Shown in pieces: positions 7,747 through 37,838 of a stretch of DNA of 39,684 bases. Position 1 is the stretch's first letter. Every line of letters starts with the position of its first letter. The stretch is from a virus: positions 1 through 39,684 of the IMG/VR virus record IMGVR_UViG_3300035138_000061, one strand, 5' to 3'. Both the position numbers and the translations under genes were made by a program. The notes beneath the pieces were generated by a model that was given only the letters and a program-made list of their open reading frames with translations, made no database searches and had not been told where the DNA came from.

Positions 7747-8166
7747 GTGATTGTTAAGAATACTAAGACATTTGTTACTTATGCTGGTCCAATTTTCTTT
7801 TATCCCGGTATGAATGAATTCGATAATGAGAAATCAGAAACATTGATCGAAATGGATGTTTTTGAACAAATGGTTAATGATGGTACTCTTGTTATCATGG
7901 GCAGAAATGGGGATGAAGAGCAAATCCAAAATACATCTTCTGAAGTAGTAAGACAGGTAGCTAAAAAAGCAGAACGGATAGATATTAGTAAATTAAATGT
8001 TGAGAATGCTGCTAAAATTATCCGTGGCATGTATAATGTTGCTGAATTAAAAGAAATTCAGGAACGGGATATGCGTAAAGGAGTGCAGGAAGTGATAGCA
8101 ATTCAATTGCGAAGAATTGATGAAGCTGTCGTTAAGAAAAATGAAACTACTGAAGAAAGTGAGTAG
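7747..8166 (+). CDS. Hypothetical protein after the capsid gene
   Basis: A 139-residue protein starting at GTG 7747, five bases after GGAGG (7737-7741). The N-terminus is short and beta-rich (KTFVTYAGPIFFYPGMNEF); residues about 70-125 are helical and charged (AKKAERIDISKLNVENAAKIIRGMYN, then AELKEIQERD). Genes in this slot, between the capsid and DUF4054 connector genes, are usually minor structural or connector-associated proteins. The mid segment resembles short helical repeats that bind partners. Family not recognised. Confidence 0.6.
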   Translation: MIVKNTKTFVTYAGPIFFYPGMNEFDNEKSETLIEMDVFEQMVNDGTLVIMGRNGDEEQIQNTSSEVVRQVAKKAERIDISKLNVENAAKIIRGMYNVAELKEIQERDMRKGVQEVIAIQLRRIDEAVVKKNETTEESE

Positions 8167-8168
8167 CC

Positions 8169-8570
8169 ATGTCATTTTCAGCTTTACAAACTATCCAGTT
8201 ACGGGCGCCACAATGGTCAACTGATCCACGTTTAATCAGTTTGATTCCGTGGGCAAGTCAAGGATTGAGCGAAAATGTTTGTGGTAATCGATACGGTGAG
8301 GCTGTAGGTTTGAAGGTATTGCATATACTGGCGAAGGAAGCTGCTGCCGGGGGTGATCCAGGTTCTGGGTCATCTTCTGGTAGCGGTATAACTGGTACTT
8401 TAGTAGGCGAACGGGAAGGACAGTTATCTCGAACCTATGCCAAACCGTATAGTACATCAACCAGTTCGGTCAGCGCTGGAATGGAGGACTTTACTACAAC
8501 CTCTTTTGGGAGGGAATTGATTGCTTTACTTAAATCAGTAACATTTTCAGCACGGAATAGGTGTGTATAA
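8169..8570 (+). CDS. Head-tail connector protein (DUF4054)
   Basis: A 133-residue protein with the DUF4054 layout: FSALQTIQLRAPQWSTDPRLISLIPWAS near the start, a helix ending VLHILAKEAAAGG, a Gly/Ser-rich linker (GSGSSSGSG) and then LVGEREGQLSRTYAKP ... TSFGRELIALLKS. These proteins are gp6-like adaptors that dock on the portal and build the neck. The ribosome binding site is weak, so translation is probably coupled to the preceding gene, which ends two bases before. Confidence 0.78.
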   Translation: MSFSALQTIQLRAPQWSTDPRLISLIPWASQGLSENVCGNRYGEAVGLKVLHILAKEAAAGGDPGSGSSSGSGITGTLVGEREGQLSRTYAKPYSTSTSSVSAGMEDFTTTSFGRELIALLKSVTFSARNRCV

Positions 8571-9082
8571 TGGCCAAAGGTATCCGTGATGTGGATAAAG
8601 GGTGGAAAGACTTCCGTAAACGCATGGAAGGTGCCAAAGGTAAACACGTAACAAAGGTTGGGTTGCCATCCGGTAGCACTCCAGCGGTAGTTGGCAAGAA
8701 AGGTGGCAATAAACCTTTTCTGGATTTGGTTCAGATTGCAGCCGTGCATGAATTTGGCGCTCCAAATCGAAATATCCCGGAACGATCATTTATTCGATCT
8801 ACTACTGATGAAGAAAAAAAGAATTTAGCACATATTGCTAATTTGCAACATCAGAAGTTTATTGCTGGAAAAATAGATTTAAAAACAGCATTGGGAATTA
8901 TTGGAGAGTATCTTACCGGTAAAATGAAGAATAAAATCCGTCAACGGATACCTCCGCCTAACTCACCACAAACTATTAAACGTAAAACGGTACAGGGCAA
9001 AAAGGGAGATGTCCCATTAATTGATACTGGTCAATTAGTTCAATCGATTACTCACGTGGAACACATACAGGGGGCAAAGTAA
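8570..9082 (+). CDS. gpG-like virion morphogenesis / tail completion protein
   Basis: A 170-residue protein started at ATG 8570, which overlaps the previous stop by one base; the longer frame from 8561 lacks a ribosome binding site. Its core AAVHEFGAPNRNIPERSFIRST is a hallmark of the Mu gpG / HK97 gp10-like neck family, in which this loop contacts the connector. A lysine-rich N-terminus and the C-terminal PLIDTGQLVQSITH also fit. It likely helps join heads and tails. Confidence 0.75.
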   Translation: MAKGIRDVDKGWKDFRKRMEGAKGKHVTKVGLPSGSTPAVVGKKGGNKPFLDLVQIAAVHEFGAPNRNIPERSFIRSTTDEEKKNLAHIANLQHQKFIAGKIDLKTALGIIGEYLTGKMKNKIRQRIPPPNSPQTIKRKTVQGKKGDVPLIDTGQLVQSITHVEHIQGAK

Positions 9083-10235: not shown

Positions 10236-11597
10236 ATGAGTTTAGCTGAAATTGTTAATGTAGTAATTACTCAAGAAGCTGCCGCCATAGAACAAGCAGG
10301 ATTCAATGTGGCATTGATTCTTGGAACTAATGGTAATTTTGCGAATAGAACTGAAGAATTTGAAGCTGTGGATGCTACTTTGGCAGCAGCATTAAATGGT
10401 GGTACTGCTTCTGCTGAATACGCGGCAGCTACCGATTTGAAAGCACAATCTCCTTGTCCAGTTAAATTTAAGGTTGGTCAGATCGGAATTGCTAAAGTAT
10501 TAACTGATGATGCGGGTACTTTTACCGCTGGGAGTATATCTTTAAAAGTAAATGGTACCACAGTTACAACCTCATTTACTACGGATAAAGATACTACTAT
10601 GGCTGCTTTGGCTACTGCCATAGAAGCACTAACTGATATTAGTACGGCAGTTTATTCAGCAGGTTCACACACGATTACGATTACTCCAGTTTCAACCAGT
10701 TATGCTGGGATAACTGATATTGATTTAACGGGAATTACAGGGACTATGGCTGCTATTGCGGTAACAACTACCGGATCAGCAGTTGAAACTGTTACCAGTG
10801 CGTTAAATGGTATTCTCCTTCAGGATACTGATTGGTATGGATTAATTACAACTTCCCGAACACAAGCAGATCAAGAATTGGCAGCTGCATGGGTAGAATC
10901 AAATAACCGTATATATTTTGCAGCAAGTAATGATGAAGATATTCCGGGAACTACCGATGCTGCGGATAGTACCACTTTACCAGCGGTATTGAAAGCAGCA
11001 AATTATGCTCGAACTGCGGTTATTTATACGGAGAATTCTGATACAGAATATCCTGATGCTGCATTGTTTGGGAAATTGCTTCCGTTGGTTGCTGGTAGTT
11101 TCACAGCGAAATTTAAAACGTTATCTTCTATTACTTCAGATGAGCTTACCGTTACACAATCAGGGAATGTTCGAGATAAGAATGCCAATACTTATGAACC
11201 AATCGGGGGTAAAAGTATTTTTGCTGAAGGTACCACGGCAGCTGGAGAATTTATTGATATCATAATGTTTATTGATTGGTTGAAAGCACGTATCACTGAA
11301 GAAGTGTATGCTGTATTAATTGCAAATGCAAAAGTACCTTATAGTCCAACCGGATTGGTACAAATAAGCTCAGCAATTGAAAAAGTGTTACGTATCGGAC
11401 AAGCTAATGATGGCATTACTACCTATATTCAGGATTCAGACGGGGATCAAGCAGGTGGTTTTCTGGTGACTCTCCCAACTTATGCTGATATTCCAGCAGC
11501 AGATAAATCCAATCGTCAATTAAATAATGTTCGTTTTCAAGCGTGGTTATCAGGAGCAATTCATGCGGTAACAATAAATGGTGTAGTTTTATATTAA
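10236..11597 (+). CDS. Contractile tail sheath protein (DUF3383)
   Basis: A 453-residue protein from ATG 10236, with GGAGG upstream. The start MSLAEIVNVVIT and ANGG/FAN... segment, the centre DTDWYGLITTSRTQADQELAAAWVES and the end TYADIPAADKSNRQLNNVRFQAWLSGAIHAVTINGVV are typical of DUF3383 sheath proteins; the last part folds into the conserved sheath core. Residues about 88-188 are an insertion (DDAGTFTAGSISLKVNGT...) nearly identical to that in the cement protein. The presence of a sheath gene defines the phage as a myovirus. The polymer contracts on infection. Confidence 0.88.
   Translation: MSLAEIVNVVITQEAAAIEQAGFNVALILGTNGNFANRTEEFEAVDATLAAALNGGTASAEYAAATDLKAQSPCPVKFKVGQIGIAKVLTDDAGTFTAGSISLKVNGTTVTTSFTTDKDTTMAALATAIEALTDISTAVYSAGSHTITITPVSTSYAGITDIDLTGITGTMAAIAVTTTGSAVETVTSALNGILLQDTDWYGLITTSRTQADQELAAAWVESNNRIYFAASNDEDIPGTTDAADSTTLPAVLKAANYARTAVIYTENSDTEYPDAALFGKLLPLVAGSFTAKFKTLSSITSDELTVTQSGNVRDKNANTYEPIGGKSIFAEGTTAAGEFIDIIMFIDWLKARITEEVYAVLIANAKVPYSPTGLVQISSAIEKVLRIGQANDGITTYIQDSDGDQAGGFLVTLPTYADIPAADKSNRQLNNVRFQAWLSGAIHAVTINGVVLY
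10564..10594 (+). repeat. 31-base direct repeat, copy 2 (inserted domain in sheath gene)
   Basis: Identical to 6147-6177 in the cement gene. It lies in the shared inserted domain and indicates recent duplication or gene conversion between two structural genes. Confidence 0.9.
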
Positions 11598-11617
11598 TTT
11601 TAGTAAAGGAGTAATTT

Positions 11618-12052
11618 ATGGCTGTATTTAATTATGATCCTAAAAAAGTCATCATAACTGTTGCCGGAATAGCGCTCACCGGACTGTCAGATGATTTTAT
11701 CGAATGTGATCGAGATGAGGATAGTTTCCTTAAACGCGCTGGTGCTGATGGTATAGTGAGTCGAGCAAAAAATGGTAACCGATCTGGTTTTATCAATATT
11801 ACTTTACATTCAACATCTCCAAGCAATGCTGTATTGACTGGATTATTAGCTACTGATGAAGCTACTGGTGCTGGAATAGTTCCGGTAGTTATTAAAGAAG
11901 TAGACACTAATTCAGCAATAATTAGTGCATTTGCATGGGTAAAACGGCCAGCAAAATCTGACTATGGTAAAGAAGTAAAAGATAGGCAATGGATGTTAGA
12001 CTGTGCTGATTTAGATATAATTAATGCTGGCGCATCAGCAATTTCAGCTTAA
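11618..12052 (+). CDS. Tail tube protein (DUF3277)
   Basis: A 144-residue protein from ATG 11618 (AAAGGAG upstream), right after the sheath gene. The pattern YDPKKVIITVAGIALTGLSDD.I...RDEDSFLKRAGADGIVSRAKN.NRSG.I.ITL..TSPSN matches DUF3277 tube proteins. Hexamers stack to make the inner tube through which DNA passes. Length is normal. Confidence 0.87.
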   Translation: MAVFNYDPKKVIITVAGIALTGLSDDFIECDRDEDSFLKRAGADGIVSRAKNGNRSGFINITLHSTSPSNAVLTGLLATDEATGAGIVPVVIKEVDTNSAIISAFAWVKRPAKSDYGKEVKDRQWMLDCADLDIINAGASAISA

Positions 12053-12079
12053 CTTTTAATAAAACACTGGAGGTAAATT

Positions 12080-12589
12080 TTGAATACGATTGACACACGT
12101 ATTAATGGTGTACGTGTAGTAATTACTGAGAAAACTGCTACGCAATCTGCTCTTTTACTTGCGAGAATAGTCAAGTACTTCGGTTCAGGAATAATTAAAA
12201 TAATTGATAATTTCAAACATCTGGCATCTTCCGGCGGAGAAATATCTAATGTCACGGCGCTATTGGATTCAAATGTAACGTTGGATGGATTTGTTGATGC
12301 TATTAATGATATAAGTGATAAAATTGATCCTGAGATTTTTGTGAATTTACTTCAGGAGATTTCTGGTGGCGCTAAAATTCAACATCCAGTTAATAGCGGT
12401 GAAATGATGGAAGTAAATAATGATACTTTTGATGCTATCTTTACGGGTAGGACTAAATTAATGTATCAGGTTGTATTTTTTGTATTGAAAGTGAACTTCG
12501 GTGATTTTTTCAAGGTAGGCGACAGTGGGATAATTCCAACTCCTCCAGTGTCGCCACCGATGGGCAAAAAGAACGTATCAAAAAATTAA
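12080..12589 (+). CDS. Tail assembly chaperone, short form (gpG-like)
   Basis: A 169-residue protein started at TTG 12080, six bases after GGAGG (12069-12073). It lies between tube and tape measure genes, the standard place for tail assembly chaperones, and is helical after a short beta start. Near its end lie an in-frame T TTT TTC slippery heptamer (12505-12511) and a stem-loop. A -1 shift there joins it to the frame that runs to 12777, giving a longer form of about 232 residues. Without shifting it ends in a Pro/Gly/Lys tail. The chaperones are expected to coat the tape measure during tail assembly and to be absent from virions. Confidence 0.78.
   Translation: MNTIDTRINGVRVVITEKTATQSALLLARIVKYFGSGIIKIIDNFKHLASSGGEISNVTALLDSNVTLDGFVDAINDISDKIDPEIFVNLLQEISGGAKIQHPVNSGEMMEVNNDTFDAIFTGRTKLMYQVVFFVLKVNFGDFFKVGDSGIIPTPPVSPPMGKKNVSKN
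12505..12558 (+). promoter_or_regulatory. Programmed -1 ribosomal frameshift signal
   Basis: T TTT TTC at 12505-12511 is an in-frame XXXYYYZ heptamer. Six bases downstream GGCGACA (12518-12524) pairs perfectly with TGTCGCC (12549-12555); GGT (12514-12516) and ACC (12556-12558) extend the stem with one bulged A. The -1 frame is open from here to 12777. A second heptamer, A AAA AAT at 12580-12586, sits one codon before the zero-frame stop, but has no stem behind it that I can see. Confidence 0.75.
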
Positions 12590-25317: not shown

Positions 25318-25961
25318 GACTTCTTAATAATAATATGGCAAAAATACGTTCAAATAAAATTGTATTTAATGCCAAAAATCAAGTATTGAAGGAGAAAATT
25401 GACGATTTCTGTGATATGAAAGATACTGATTGTTTGATCACTGTTGATCCGGGGTATAATACTGCTTTAGCAGCATTCTATAGTAATGGTATCTATATTC
25501 AAAAATTTTCTATTCCAGATAAATTGGCTGAAATTGAAAAATTATATACAGCTCAATTGACTTTTGAAAAAGCATTAAATAATGTATCAGATTATGCCAT
25601 AGGCACTATTGATTATTCCGGTAGAATGGTGTTAATCGAGAATGTATCGGTTTGGGGCGAATCTGGTGCCAGTGGAAAAGCAAATGCTGGAAAAATATCA
25701 CAACAGTCAGAAGTATCTTCTGCACGCGGTGATTTACTTAAGTTAGCACGGTTAATCGGATTGTATTGCGGAGTGTGTTTTGATAATAATGATATTTGTA
25801 ATTTAATTACTGCTATAAATTGGAAAGGGCAATTGACTAAAAAAGCAACTAAAGAATGGGTTGAAATGGAATTGGGGTGTAGATTAGATATGACCGATCA
25901 TGAAATAGATGCTATCGGGATAGGATTAAGCGTACTTAATGAGTGGAAAGGATATAAATAA
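25314..25961 (+). CDS. RuvC-like Holliday junction resolvase
   Basis: A 215-residue protein in an ATGA overlap with the helicase gene (AAGGAG upstream). RNase H-fold motifs are visible: D45 in LITVDPGYNTALA, E109 in VLIENV, and D195/D199 in DHEIDAIGIG. These match the catalytic acidic residues of RuvC-like nucleases. It should cut branched DNA before packaging. The TTG-less alternative start at 25335 has no ribosome binding site. The stop overlaps the next ATG by one base. Confidence 0.8.
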   Translation: MRLLNNNMAKIRSNKIVFNAKNQVLKEKIDDFCDMKDTDCLITVDPGYNTALAAFYSNGIYIQKFSIPDKLAEIEKLYTAQLTFEKALNNVSDYAIGTIDYSGRMVLIENVSVWGESGASGKANAGKISQQSEVSSARGDLLKLARLIGLYCGVCFDNNDICNLITAINWKGQLTKKATKEWVEMELGCRLDMTDHEIDAIGIGLSVLNEWKGYK

Positions 25962-26536
25962 TGGCAGCAATAAAATTACCCAAACCGTTTAAATCAGTAA
26001 AATTTCTTAAAGATTTTAGAAATTGTACCGATTGTCAATTATGGAGTAGACAGTATAATTTACTTGTTGGAAGGGGTGTTCTACCCTGTGATTTACTTAT
26101 AATAAGTGATTTCCCTTCGCGAAATGATGAATTATCCGGTAAAGTTTTATCTGGTAATGAAGGGAGGTTATTTGATTATATGATAGAGAAATCTGGTATG
26201 AGTAAATTTACTTACTATATCACATACACTCTTCTTTGCTGTCCGATAGACAAGAAAAATGGAAGTATTCGAGAACCTACAATTTCAGAAATTGCTATGT
26301 GTCGAAAAAATATTTTCATGATTATAAAACAATCACAAGCTAAATTTTACTTACTTTTAGGAGATTTACCGAAGAGATATCTTGGAACTTCTTTACCGGG
26401 ATATTATAGTATACAACATCCTCTAAATATATCATTAACAGGAGCAACTAAAAGTCCATTATATCTGCAAAATTTACGGAAATTGGAGGAGATTTATGCC
26501 ACCATTGAAACTAATACAACCGATAAAAGTCAGTGA
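25961..26536 (+). CDS. Uracil-DNA glycosylase superfamily protein (family 4-like, Fe-S)
   Basis: A 191-residue protein. CTDC at 22-25, C93/C94 in YTLLCCP and C114 in EPTISEIAMC fit the four iron-sulfur ligands of family 4 glycosylases, and GKVLSGNEGRLFDYMIEKSG fits the loop after motif 1. The usual motif GEAPG is replaced by SDFPS (49-53), so the canonical water-activating residue is altered; the second catalytic motif HPS appears as IQHPL near the end. It may be a changed-specificity glycosylase or a non-catalytic binder. In a phage predicted to alter thymidine it could recognise modified bases. Fold likely; activity unknown. Confidence 0.72.
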   Translation: MAAIKLPKPFKSVKFLKDFRNCTDCQLWSRQYNLLVGRGVLPCDLLIISDFPSRNDELSGKVLSGNEGRLFDYMIEKSGMSKFTYYITYTLLCCPIDKKNGSIREPTISEIAMCRKNIFMIIKQSQAKFYLLLGDLPKRYLGTSLPGYYSIQHPLNISLTGATKSPLYLQNLRKLEEIYATIETNTTDKSQ

Positions 26537-33649: not shown

Positions 33650-34270
33650 ATGTGCGCTGTTATCGGAAGTTTAGTGAAATATGCGGATACCCGATGTAAA
33701 TTTTTATTGACTAATTTATTCAAAGAGTCAGTAATCCGTGGTCAGGAAAGTTTTGGGTATTATGTAGTAACAAATCATGGAATATTATGGGATAATAATG
33801 CTCCAAGTATTCGAATCAGACAAATAATACAAGCATTGGAAGATAACACGGTAATATTGATTCATTGCCGTTATTCTACCAGTGGAAATACCGGACAACC
33901 CATAGTAATAGATAATAATGGATTAATTTTTAATGGTAATATTCATATGGGTACTAAAGAAGAAATTGAGCATGAATTTAAAATTAAAATGAAAACGGAT
34001 AACGATGGTGAAGTTTTTCTAACTTATTTAACTTCCCGGAAGCATATACAAATATTAAATGATCCCGATGTATCCTTCTTCGGGGCTTGGTATATTGGTG
34101 GGTGTTTATATGCAGCAAGGAATAAACGAAGACCGGGATACATCTATCGGGAACAAGGCAACACTTATTTAGTATCTACTAAAGATATCTTAAGTAAAGC
34201 TGGAGGAGATACACTCAAAGCAGTAGCTTTACCCAATGGGCATGAAATATTAGTGGGGCGAAGATGTTAA
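33650..34270 (+). CDS. Stand-alone class II glutamine amidotransferase
   Basis: 206 residues from ATG 33650 (GAGAGG upstream); the earlier frame from 33578 is in primase DNA. Class II (Ntn) signature: C2 nucleophile after Met removal, RGQESFG (30-36), HCRYST with R74, FNGN with N95-G96 and D119 in TDNDGE. These equal Arg73, Asn98/Gly99 and Asp123 of GlmS, so glutamine binding and ammonia release look intact. No synthetase domain is fused. It overlaps the DNA amino acid transferase gene by seven bases, so ammonia is probably used by the modification pathway. That role is inferred. Confidence 0.85.
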   Translation: MCAVIGSLVKYADTRCKFLLTNLFKESVIRGQESFGYYVVTNHGILWDNNAPSIRIRQIIQALEDNTVILIHCRYSTSGNTGQPIVIDNNGLIFNGNIHMGTKEEIEHEFKIKMKTDNDGEVFLTYLTSRKHIQILNDPDVSFFGAWYIGGCLYAARNKRRPGYIYREQGNTYLVSTKDILSKAGGDTLKAVALPNGHEILVGRRC

Positions 34271-35124
34271 CATATTATCAATACCATTTAAAAAGTTACG
34301 AATACGGAGATATTGATCCAGCGTATAATTTACTTAAGTATATTTGCGATAGATATGAACTGAATATTGAACAACGGTATTGGCTTGCTTTCCTTTACGG
34401 TTGCACTTATTGTGGCGCTACTGTATTTTACATATATAATGAATTCCCTGATTTTGAGAATGTGAATATACCACGATTGGAACGCTGGTGGAATGAACAT
34501 AAACATCGTTTACTATTTCAAACTGATCGTATGCGAATACGAAGTAATAATCAGTTTGTAGCAGCTTATCGATCGTACCAGGATCGGCTTGACGGCCGTC
34601 GGCAGCAAGATTTTATCGAAAACGATATTTGTACTTTCCCGGATGCAGGTCTGAATTATAATTATCTTTACCAACGATTATTAGAAGTAAAATATTTCGG
34701 TAGGTATAGTTTATTTCTCTGGCTGGAATGTATGCATGAATTGACTGGAGTAAATATCATGCCTACCCGTATAGATTGGCGGAATGCTAAAAATTGTTTT
34801 AATGGAGTAATGAATTGTTTTGGTTTACCTGAACGAGATATAGTTACTAAAGAAGAGAGTATGGTCGCGGATCAGTTATTTTTGGTAATTTTAAATCAAT
34901 TGCGTACTTATTATCCTCAGTTAAAAACGACTGTCTGGAATACGGAAACTACTTTATGCGCATATAAAAAATATTGTCATGATAAACGGTATGTAGGATA
35001 TTACTGGAAACGGATGTGTGCTGAAATAGAAAAAATGAAAAATAATACTCCAAGTAAAGTATGTTGGAATGCTTTACTTGATTATATTAACGATCCTAAA
35101 GAAAGGGAAAATTATGGCTATTAA
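34264..35124 (+). CDS. Amino acid:DNA transferase (aGPT-PPlase2-like)
   Basis: A 286-residue, almost all-helical protein. Key stretches: TYCGATVFYIYNEFPDFENV (48-67), LERWWNEHKHRLLFQTDRM (72-90), NNQFVAAYRSYQ and LGRYSLFLWLECMHELTG-like helix. These resemble the alpha-glutamyl/putrescinyl thymine pyrophosphorylase clade 2 family, which displaces pyrophosphate or phosphate from phosphorylated 5-hmdU in DNA with an amino acid. It overlaps the amidotransferase gene by seven bases and the ParB-like gene by eleven. Which amino acid is attached is not predictable. Assignment rests on family resemblance and on neighbours. Confidence 0.75.
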   Translation: MLTYYQYHLKSYEYGDIDPAYNLLKYICDRYELNIEQRYWLAFLYGCTYCGATVFYIYNEFPDFENVNIPRLERWWNEHKHRLLFQTDRMRIRSNNQFVAAYRSYQDRLDGRRQQDFIENDICTFPDAGLNYNYLYQRLLEVKYFGRYSLFLWLECMHELTGVNIMPTRIDWRNAKNCFNGVMNCFGLPERDIVTKEESMVADQLFLVILNQLRTYYPQLKTTVWNTETTLCAYKKYCHDKRYVGYYWKRMCAEIEKMKNNTPSKVCWNALLDYINDPKERENYGY

Positions 35125-35902
35125 ATTTATTTCTAAAAGTAAACAACCTAAACGAGTAGCACGCACAGAGCAGGAAGCACTACCAGCGGCGCCTACTACC
35201 AATCATCAGCTTAACATGCAATTAGTTCCGTTAGAGTCTGTTAAACTATGGTCTGAAAATCCATGGAATCATCAAAAAATAATTCCTCAATTGGCGAAAG
35301 CATTGGCTATTCACGGGCAAGTATCCGCTGTGATCGTTTGGCGCAAAAATAACACCATATACAAAGGAAACCATACCCACCGTGCAATTACTTATCTCCG
35401 GGACAATTTAGGCAAAATTGCGCAGGAATTGAGTATAACAATATCGGATATTATGGAAATAATTGATCCACGATATATTAAAGTGGAATATCGGGATTTC
35501 CCCAGCGAGAATGCTGCGACTGCTTATGGTTTATCAGATAATAATCTGGGGCAAGGAGGGAAATATGATGATAATTTACTTTTAAAAATTATGCAATCAG
35601 ATCAATCCTATTTCTCAGATACTAATCGCACTGGATTTACGGAGAAAGATTTAAAAGCATTTCAACTAAGCACTATGAGTGATATTAGTAAATTAGCCAA
35701 TACTGATGTTGCAGGAGATTCCCAACAAATGGGTGAATTTGCTATTATTCTATTCGATAGTGTATTCGAATTAACTGCTTTTAAACAAGCATTTGGTATG
35801 GCGGTTCATGAACGAAAAATAAATTTTTCAACTATTATGTCATCTATGACTGATGAATGGCGCCAATGGTTTATAGAACATATAGATGATTTACCTTTCT
35901 AA
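35114..35902 (+). CDS. ParB-like nuclease/CTPase-fold protein
   Basis: 262 residues started at ATG 35114 (GAAAGGGAA upstream); the longer frame lies in the previous gene. After a basic tail it has VPLESVKLWSENPWNHQKIIPQLAKALAIHGQVSAVIVWRKNNTIYKGNHTHRAITYL, the ParB-type domain; GNHTHRA is the counterpart of GERRYRA. SENAATAYGLSDNNLG follows. No typical HTH for centromere binding was seen. ParB-like proteins accompany thymidine hypermodification operons and are thought to bring enzymes to DNA or act in phosphate chemistry. It is unlikely to be a segregation protein because no ParA is present. Confidence 0.77.
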   Translation: MAIKFISKSKQPKRVARTEQEALPAAPTTNHQLNMQLVPLESVKLWSENPWNHQKIIPQLAKALAIHGQVSAVIVWRKNNTIYKGNHTHRAITYLRDNLGKIAQELSITISDIMEIIDPRYIKVEYRDFPSENAATAYGLSDNNLGQGGKYDDNLLLKIMQSDQSYFSDTNRTGFTEKDLKAFQLSTMSDISKLANTDVAGDSQQMGEFAIILFDSVFELTAFKQAFGMAVHERKINFSTIMSSMTDEWRQWFIEHIDDLPF

Positions 35903-35913
35903 AGGAGAACAAT

Positions 35914-36483
35914 ATGAAAATTGTAGGAATTTGCGGAGCACCAGCTACTGGAAAAACGACATTGGTACATGCTATAATTGATCATTATGGTATAGATACT
36001 AAGTGTATTTCGGATTTTCAATCATTGAAATATCTATATTCTAAAAGACATAAAATTATTATACTTGGAATATATGATAAAACTACCGCTTTTGGTGGTA
36101 CGGACAAATTAAGTATGTCTGTAATTAATGATGCTGAAGAATTCATTAGAGCTGGATTGGACTATTCTGATTTTGAAAAAGCTACTATCATTTACGAAGG
36201 GGATAGGTTGTGGTGTGCACGTTGGATTGAATTTATTATCAATTTAGATATTGAATATCTATTTCTTTATCTAAAATTAAATCATGATGAATTCGCACAT
36301 AGACATATTCTACGGATGCATGATAAAGTGGGGCAAGAGATTCAATTTATTAACTCTCGAATAACTAAATACGCAAATTTAATGAATACTTTCCCGGTAT
36401 TCCAAGTAGCAGATAATAGCACTTTAGTTAATCAAAAAGGTATCCTTCAAACTATCTATAATTTTATCGAAAAGAAAGATTAA
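35914..36483 (+). CDS. P-loop kinase, 5-hydroxymethyl-dU DNA kinase-like
   Basis: A 189-residue P-loop protein: Walker A GAPATGKTT (8-16), IIILGIYD (49-55), and FGGTDKLSM (60-68), a motif typical of 5-hmdU DNA kinases (HMUDK). The Asp in YDKTTAFGGTD fits the acidic residue that activates the hydroxyl. It would phosphorylate 5-hydroxymethyl-dU in DNA so that the transferase can substitute the phosphate. AAAGGAG lies seven bases before the start. Adjacent genes strongly favour this over a generic nucleotide kinase. Confidence 0.78.
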   Translation: MKIVGICGAPATGKTTLVHAIIDHYGIDTKCISDFQSLKYLYSKRHKIIILGIYDKTTAFGGTDKLSMSVINDAEEFIRAGLDYSDFEKATIIYEGDRLWCARWIEFIINLDIEYLFLYLKLNHDEFAHRHILRMHDKVGQEIQFINSRITKYANLMNTFPVFQVADNSTLVNQKGILQTIYNFIEKKD

Positions 36484-36485
36484 TT

Positions 36486-37838
36486 ATGGCAGCAATTAAA
36501 ATGAGTACAAATCCATGTATTCGAGATAAACTAAAAACAAATTACACCTCTCCCCGTTGGTCAGGGGAGGTACTGGATTGTAGTATGCCAATGACTTTCG
36601 ATCAATACTCAAGATGCTCATTCGATTGTTTGTATTGCTTCTCTTTTTTCCAGCGGTCTTTGAAAAAATATAATCCAATTACTGAAACATCTAAATTATA
36701 CACTGAGGAATTGCCTGCAACTATCAATAAAAAAATATTCTTGAATATGTTTACGGGTAATAGCACTGCTCAAAATTTTAAACAATTCAAAGGGTATATT
36801 CAGAATAGAATGGTAATGCAGTGGGGAGGGATGTCTGATCCATTTGATATTTTTGAAAAACGATATGGTGTTGGATTAGATATTCTAAATAATCTTTACG
36901 AAATAGAATATCCAATTTGTTTTAGCACTAAAGGTATTTGGTGGCTAGATGATGAACGATATGCTTGTTTATTTCGTGGGAATGATTTCTGGAATGTAAA
37001 AATAAGTATTATCAACTTGGATCCCGGTAGAGCATCTCAAATGGAGCGCGGAGTAAGCACTCCCATGGAAAGACTTGAAGCAATTAATCGTTTAGTTACC
37101 GGCCAGATCGGAAAGGGGGGCAAAGGTTTGAACGCTGGAGTAACTTTACGGTTACGTCCATTCATAATTGGATATTCTGATATAAATGATGAGTATCTTG
37201 ATTTAATTGAATTAGCGAGTAAAGCTGGCATTAATGCAGTAAGTACGGAATTTCTTTGTATTGAAGGAAGGACTACTTCGGAAAGTAAAGAACGATTTAA
37301 TGCTATGAGTGAGATTTGTAGTATCGATATAATTGATTTTTACCGAAGGAATTCACCGCATGCAGCGGGATATATGCGATTAAATTGGAAGATAAAAGAA
37401 CCGTATGTAGATAAGATGCAGTCTTTATGTGATAAATTAGGAGTACGTTTTTATGTTTCAGACGCACATCATAAAGATAGATGCAATAATGGATGTTGTT
37501 GCGGCCTACCTGAAAGCTGGAATTATTCGAGAGGACAATTTACTCATGCTTTAATGATAGCAAAAGAGTACGGGAAAGTACATTTTCAAGAAATAGAGAA
37601 AGGTATGCCAGATGAATGGAAAACGCAACCGATAGTGACCGCTTGCGGACTAAACGTGGCAAGGGGCAATCCAAGGGATCGAGCACGTTTCCGTACCTTC
37701 TCTATCCGGGACTATATCCGGTACATCTGGAATCATCCAAATCAACCACGATCTCCTTATAAATACTTTCATGGACTTCTTGTTGCTGATACGGTAGATT
37801 ATGAAGGTAATGTTGTGTATAGGTATAAACCTTATTAA
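36486..37838 (+). CDS. Radical SAM enzyme (SPL-like) for DNA base modification
   Basis: A 450-residue protein with the radical SAM motif C44xxxC48xxC51 in SRCSFDCLYCFSFFQ, placed after a short N-terminal part as in spore-photoproduct-lyase-like enzymes. GGMSDPFDIFEKRYG and LDILNNLYEIEYPICFSTKG fit the SAM-binding barrel. A second Cys group (C333, C337-C339, C387) could hold an auxiliary cluster or metal. In phage M6 a radical SAM isomerase rearranges an amino-acid-linked thymidine; this gene is likely to do the same or similar. Weak own ribosome binding site, so translation may be coupled to the kinase gene, two bases upstream. Confidence 0.8.
   Translation: MAAIKMSTNPCIRDKLKTNYTSPRWSGEVLDCSMPMTFDQYSRCSFDCLYCFSFFQRSLKKYNPITETSKLYTEELPATINKKIFLNMFTGNSTAQNFKQFKGYIQNRMVMQWGGMSDPFDIFEKRYGVGLDILNNLYEIEYPICFSTKGIWWLDDERYACLFRGNDFWNVKISIINLDPGRASQMERGVSTPMERLEAINRLVTGQIGKGGKGLNAGVTLRLRPFIIGYSDINDEYLDLIELASKAGINAVSTEFLCIEGRTTSESKERFNAMSEICSIDIIDFYRRNSPHAAGYMRLNWKIKEPYVDKMQSLCDKLGVRFYVSDAHHKDRCNNGCCCGLPESWNYSRGQFTHALMIAKEYGKVHFQEIEKGMPDEWKTQPIVTACGLNVARGNPRDRARFRTFSIRDYIRYIWNHPNQPRSPYKYFHGLLVADTVDYEGNVVYRYKPY

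Follow-up and report, generated by a model that had tools for sequence, protein, structure and literature searches.

Thymidine hypermodification pathways and the operon of the window

In phages M6 and ViI, the 5-hydroxymethyl step of thymidine hypermodification falls to ThyA-type enzymes, and the M6/PaMx11 pathway comprises, besides its ThyA-type hydroxymethylase, a kinase of 5-hydroxymethyl-deoxyuridine (5-hmdU), a glycinyltransferase of 5-phosphomethyl-deoxyuridine (5-PmdU), a radical S-adenosylmethionine (SAM) isomerase, and a pyridoxal phosphate (PLP) enzyme. In phages related to the one described here, the 5-hydroxymethyl step is instead carried out by TET/JBP enzymes, which require oxygen. 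Here, we examine a five-gene operon in the IMG/VR virus record IMGVR_UViG_3300035138_000061, a 39,684-nucleotide stretch that we refer to as the window. We are confident that this operon is a thymidine hypermodification cassette. Our broader proposal—that the family of its radical SAM enzyme does the work of TET/JBP anaerobically, as the first oxygen-free hydroxylase of the thymine methyl group in DNA, with which phages of gut, rumen, and termite anaerobes start several pathways and which here accompanies glutamine-fed formation of 5-aminomethyl-deoxyuridine (5-aminomethyl-dU)—seems to us evenly balanced between true and false.

With the M6/PaMx11 system, the operon has in common a kinase and an amino acid:DNA transferase (ADDT) of related families, the transferase with the predicted fold of PaMx11 gp46. 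It differs in that the window fragment has no ThyA, its radical SAM enzyme comes from another family, an amidotransferase is present, and no PLP enzyme was seen within the operon. The ViI-like (Ackermannviridae) 5-NeOmdU pathway is represented by ADDT homologs with 26–29% identity in 348 phage records; no amidotransferase or radical SAM gene lies near these loci, and several have a ThyA-family gene nearby. Phage TET/JBP cassettes, such as those of Nonlabens phage P12024L, Pelagibacter phage HTVC112P, and Rhodococcus phage Tonitrus (PMC11955845), contain the same types of partner as the window (ParB, amidotransferase, and either ADDT with kinase or a glycosyltransferase), whereas in the window a radical SAM enzyme stands in place of the oxygen-dependent TET. 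The five genes occupy positions 33650–37838, and neighbors overlap or are separated by 2–11 bases:

33650..34270, + strand, class II (Ntn) glutamine amidotransferase, proposed ammonia source (PF13522, TIGR01134, catalytic residues)
34264..35124, + strand, ADDT-family transferase, proposed substrate 5-phosphomethyl-dU in DNA (PF18724, predicted fold)
35114..35902 (ATG at 35114), + strand, ParB-like protein, probable DNA-binding accessory factor (PHROGs)
35914..36483, + strand, P-loop 5-hmdU DNA kinase-like protein (phrog_800, Ploopntkinase3, M6 gp54 profile)
36486..37838, + strand, radical SAM enzyme resembling spore photoproduct lyase (SPL), proposed oxygen-independent maker of 5-hydroxymethyl-dU in DNA (CxxxCxxC, model, context)

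A preliminary description of this DNA had called the same five genes, and its motifs held up (M-C2/R74/N95-G96/D119; FQTDR at residues 85–89; GNHTHRA; GAPATGKTT and GGTDKLS; C44/C48/C51). The set goes beyond chance, recurring in many other contigs. Its further claim, that a 5-hmdU kinase together with a transferase of the amino acid:DNA type hypermodifies thymidine, is supported by families and fold. The transferase passes the curated cut-off of the ADDT family PF18724 (69.7 bits against 26.2; 4e-19), and its AlphaFold model (pLDDT 91.5) has a single convincing match in the PDB, the PaMx11 gp46 5-PmdU glycinyltransferase (8z2n/8z2m; TM about 0.6; for 8z2n, E 9e-4 and TM 0.63), which is also the only fold there with E < 0.01. 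Judged by family score and model, the protein is a true relative of the 5-phosphomethyl-dU transferases. Homologs at 37–46% identity occur in many uncultivated virus contigs; they were recovered with alignment queries, the single-sequence scan having returned none. The kinase matches phrog_800 (1.9e-9) and, just below the cut-off of 27, Ploopntkinase3 (PF18751; 25.9 bits, 8e-6); its P-loop reads GAPATGKTT, and its profile matches that of M6 gp54 (hhalign probability 96.7%). By these profile comparisons, it is distantly related to M6 gp54 and to phrog_800, and a predicted 5-hmdU DNA kinase. Both M6 gp54 (L028 in our set; Pseudomonas phage M6, 41685–42248) and phrog_800 bear the label “terminase small subunit.” Since gp54 sits in a modification cluster with PLP enzyme, radical SAM, and ADDT-like genes, the small terminase of M6 is gp11, and the window kinase is related to gp54, this label looks like a misannotation.

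The source of the 5-hydroxymethyl group

Scans of the 39.7-kb window found no ThyA, TET, or cytosine-C5 methylase, and the TET/JBP oxygenase family PF12851 had no match in this fragment, the cassette included. Among contigs with the amidotransferase–ADDT pair but without a radical SAM gene, 46/50 encode TET/JBP (Pfam scan of whole contigs), and a profile search whose query does find matches elsewhere placed the radical SAM gene in 0/50 of them. Contigs with the radical SAM gene, conversely, carry TET in 4 of 78 cases (1/50 and 3/28) and a ThyA-type enzyme in one (0/50 and 1/28), the sets of 28 taking in the window. When amidotransferase-positive loci were de-replicated at 80% identity, 37 had TET only, six had the radical SAM gene only, none had both, and seven had neither (Fisher p = 1e-4, in a count that assumes an independence among loci that holds only in part). 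On the ADDT tree, TET and radical SAM were exchanged at least four times, and one radical SAM locus (L210) is sister to a TET locus (L074) with support of 100/96. Furthermore, two contigs (L153 and L155) combine a full M6-type set (PLP enzyme, M6-type radical SAM, ADDT, and kinase) with a window-type radical SAM gene and no ThyA. The preliminary description had made absence of a ThyA-like hydroxymethylase from the complete genome a test against modification; this test is invalid, as most relatives use TET/JBP and those of the radical SAM type mostly have neither enzyme.

The neighborhoods of the radical SAM family point in the same direction. Across 90 non-redundant loci, the 5 kb on either side of the radical SAM gene hold ADDT/kinase genes in 42 cases and a gene for the TET-associated glycosyltransferase (TAGT) in 30; all ADDT, kinase, and TAGT genes in the scanned loci (138/138) lie no more than 3 kb from it, with none in the remaining 932 kb. 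Another glycosyltransferase adjoins or lies near the gene in L005, L007, and, weakly, L001, and fusions of radical SAM and TAGT occur in both orders (L159 and L165; L065). Because three downstream chemistries—amination, M6-type modification, and glycosylation—all need a 5-hydroxymethyl group, the enzyme is most parsimoniously read as the one that makes it. From this context, we consider the window-type radical SAM enzyme a somewhat likely supplier of the hydroxymethyl group.

Hosts of the two types differ accordingly in their relation to oxygen. The 17 cellular radical SAM loci, from genomes and metagenome-assembled genomes (MAGs), include Bacteroides, Phocaeicola, Prevotella, Mediterranea, other Bacteroidaceae, Clostridia, Lachnospiraceae, Atopobiaceae, Victivallales, Methanobrevibacter, Azobacteroides, a rumen Spirochaetaceae bin, and a Bacilli bin; such groups consist chiefly of anaerobes from gut, rumen, and termite. 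Phage isolates with a cassette-like TET, on the other hand, have hosts from aerobic groups: Nonlabens/Persicivirga, Pelagibacter, Stenotrophomonas, Caulobacter, Synechococcus, Methylophilales, Microbacterium, and Gordonia. This division fits an oxygen-independent replacement.

At the level of the protein itself, the radical SAM enzyme matches NCBIfam rSAM_PA0069 at 1e-8 and Pfam only at 0.38, and C44/C48/C51 (CxxxCxxC) are kept in at least 111 of 113 relatives. The best PDB matches of its model (pLDDT 83) are all SPL, at 15–16% identity and TM 0.42–0.55, though this partial TIM barrel also matches PFL-AE and other folds. SPL is thus similar in fold and acts on thymine in DNA, but in the window family no conserved cysteine stands out at roughly the spacing expected for the hydrogen donor of SPL (judged without superposition), and the family has near-invariant cysteines of its own (C32, C258, C338, and C339). 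We rejected identification of the protein as an M6 gp53-type isomerase, as phmmer found no match between the two. A 677-aa apparent fusion in L008 was rejected as a spurious frame.

The proposed pathway and its alternatives

The amidotransferase matches purF (TIGR01134, 5e-8) and GATase_6 (PF13522, 3.5e-4), and the class II residues are nearly invariant among 102 relatives (C2 in 97, R74 in 100, N95 in 100, G96 in 102, D119 in 102). It lies directly upstream of the ADDT transferase in 102/102 cases (median gap 0), the only gene recognized between them being a GNAT acetyltransferase, in 44/102; it is present in 49/49 rows of the window's clade on the ADDT tree, and most loci with the pair also hold the kinase and a ParB-like gene. 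A set with an amidotransferase, which the preliminary description had thought unusual, is therefore the rule: the enzyme is the constant partner of this ADDT clade. Since it is tied to the clade whatever the source of the hydroxymethyl group, its simplest role is delivery of ammonia to the transferase, and we see about an even chance that the two would in this way produce 5-aminomethyl-dU. From the recurring pair, one would expect only a few steps to a base that bears an amine.

Our model is a post-replicative hypermodification of thymine in phage DNA that would need no oxygen. As suggested by gene context, the SPL-like radical SAM enzyme would take a hydrogen from the 5-methyl group of thymine in DNA, giving 5-hydroxymethyl-dU; the P-loop kinase, whose role has family support, would convert this to 5-phosphomethyl-dU; and the amidotransferase would release ammonia from glutamine, with which ADDT—a transferase by fold and family, its nucleophile conjectural—would displace the phosphate, giving 5-aminomethyl-dU. 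In relatives, GNAT may then acylate this product; no GNAT was recognized in the window operon. Anchoring the enzymes on DNA, or moving them there, is the probable task of the ParB-like protein. The pathway as a whole, from oxygen-free hydroxymethylation through the kinase to glutamine-fed amination, is one that we favor with moderate confidence.

Several points weigh against the proposal. To our knowledge, no enzyme is known to hydroxylate a methyl group of DNA by radical SAM chemistry. The amidotransferase is missing from 29/35 de-replicated ADDT loci with a radical SAM enzyme, and ammonia as nucleophile is itself conjectural. A phylogenetically independent paired test gave the expected direction in 3/3 informative pairs, too few for support (p = 0.25). 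All virus contigs, the window included, may be fragments; MAG contigs are open to mis-binning, and one of the 17 cellular loci is from a hot-spring Bacteroidetes/Chlorobi bin that is uncertain as an anaerobe. Moreover, TAGT can modify an already glucosylated base in T6-like phages (PMC13390438), so that TAGT alone does not prove that a 5-hydroxymethyl maker is nearby. Finally, L010–L012 and L154 have both TET and the radical SAM gene, which could point to an additional role or to an ongoing switch; L010–L012 encode TAGT besides, as well as a SPASM radical SAM protein. This coexistence would also suit an alternative in which the radical SAM protein acts late, as a tailoring enzyme like M6 gp53 that rearranges or oxidizes the attached group, with 5-hmdU coming from an unlinked or host gene. 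Contigs are partial, and the window enzyme and gp53 do have a radical SAM core in common (hhalign 96.6%). Nevertheless, such a tailoring enzyme would have to serve three unlike chemistries sharing only 5-CH2-OH, 77/78 radical SAM contigs lack ThyA, and the M6-type isomerase has a gene of its own: close gp53 homologs neighbor the window-type gene in L153 and L155, and the second radical SAM protein of L004, which matches gp53 at 2e-101, adjoins it. We consequently regard late tailoring as unlikely, and the preliminary description's view that the enzyme remodels an attached group in the M6 manner is not upheld.

Other alternatives concern the product and the base. ADDT might attach an amino acid whose carboxylate the amidotransferase helps to amidate, yielding a thymine amino-acid amide; its relatives do attach amino acids (the 8z2n glycinyltransferase), class II amidotransferases often partner synthetases, and L018 has an amidoligase-like open reading frame (8106–8966, between ADDT and GNAT; HEIEWGD, HIHIHV, and IEFR), recognized by eye only and without a match to Pfam families. 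However, few relatives have such a frame (L024, L069, and L070 in addition), the window operon has no recognized ATP-dependent amide synthetase, and throughout the tree clade the amidotransferase goes with ADDT itself. The amide is accordingly possible but doubtful, and a primary amine fed by glutamine appears likelier than the base kept as acid or amide of the preliminary description. As for the base, cytosine is within the reach of the TET and TAGT families, and the cassette could in principle turn 5-methylcytosine into a 5-hydroxymethylcytosine derivative. Thymine, on the contrary, carries a 5-methyl group already, and a cytosine-C5 methylase was found in just 4/69 contigs. As the characterized kinases and transferases of M6, ViI, and PaMx11 also act on thymidine-derived 5-hmdU (PMC6449724; 8z2n), thymine is the likelier base and cytosine very improbable.

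If the proposal of an anaerobic TET/JBP counterpart is true, it would explain how phages of strict anaerobes oxidize thymine in DNA, and the replacement would be a new DNA-modifying activity, a parallel to oxygen-dependent and oxygen-independent pairs such as HemF/HemN, and possibly a tool for producing modified DNA. In the incomplete literature available to us, we found no earlier report linking radical SAM enzymes with TET/JBP or 5-hydroxymethyluracil in phages.

Genomic setting and further observations

The window is a piece of a myovirus and, lacking terminal repeats, an incomplete genome; portal, capsid, tape measure, and baseplate genes lie to the left of the operon, which is preceded by genes for a family A DNA polymerase and a primase-like protein. 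The ParB-like protein (PHROGs ParB-like matches down to 7e-14) is a probable DNA-binding accessory factor; ParB accompanies the radical SAM gene in 48/90 non-redundant loci and is also present in most TET cassettes. A DNA-level search of phage records returned no matches, and the window's radical SAM protein had none among 50,697 phage records, where its relative from B. fragilis S82 had one weak metagenomic match only; plasmids gave no match.

The Bacteroides fragilis S82 locus (L238, 7949–11233), a prophage in a cultivated anaerobe, has a ParB–ADDT–kinase–radical SAM set that is immediately followed by terminase and portal-like genes. Five contigs (L163, L164, L173, L174, and L221) have two radical SAM copies each, often flanking ParB and TAGT/ADDT genes. 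Upstream of its radical SAM–TAGT fusion, L065 encodes a 446-aa protein (10942–12279) between ADDT and kinase, with a sulfotransferase-like stretch, TGTGRSGTTYF. In several phage isolates (among H44–H66), TET/JBP genes go under other names: SNF2 repair protein, DnaJ, oxidoreductase, and even queuine tRNA-ribosyltransferase. The replication module of the window, from a phage that probably modifies thymine, encodes a uracil-DNA glycosylase superfamily protein (PF03167, 1.6e-10) at 25961–26536.

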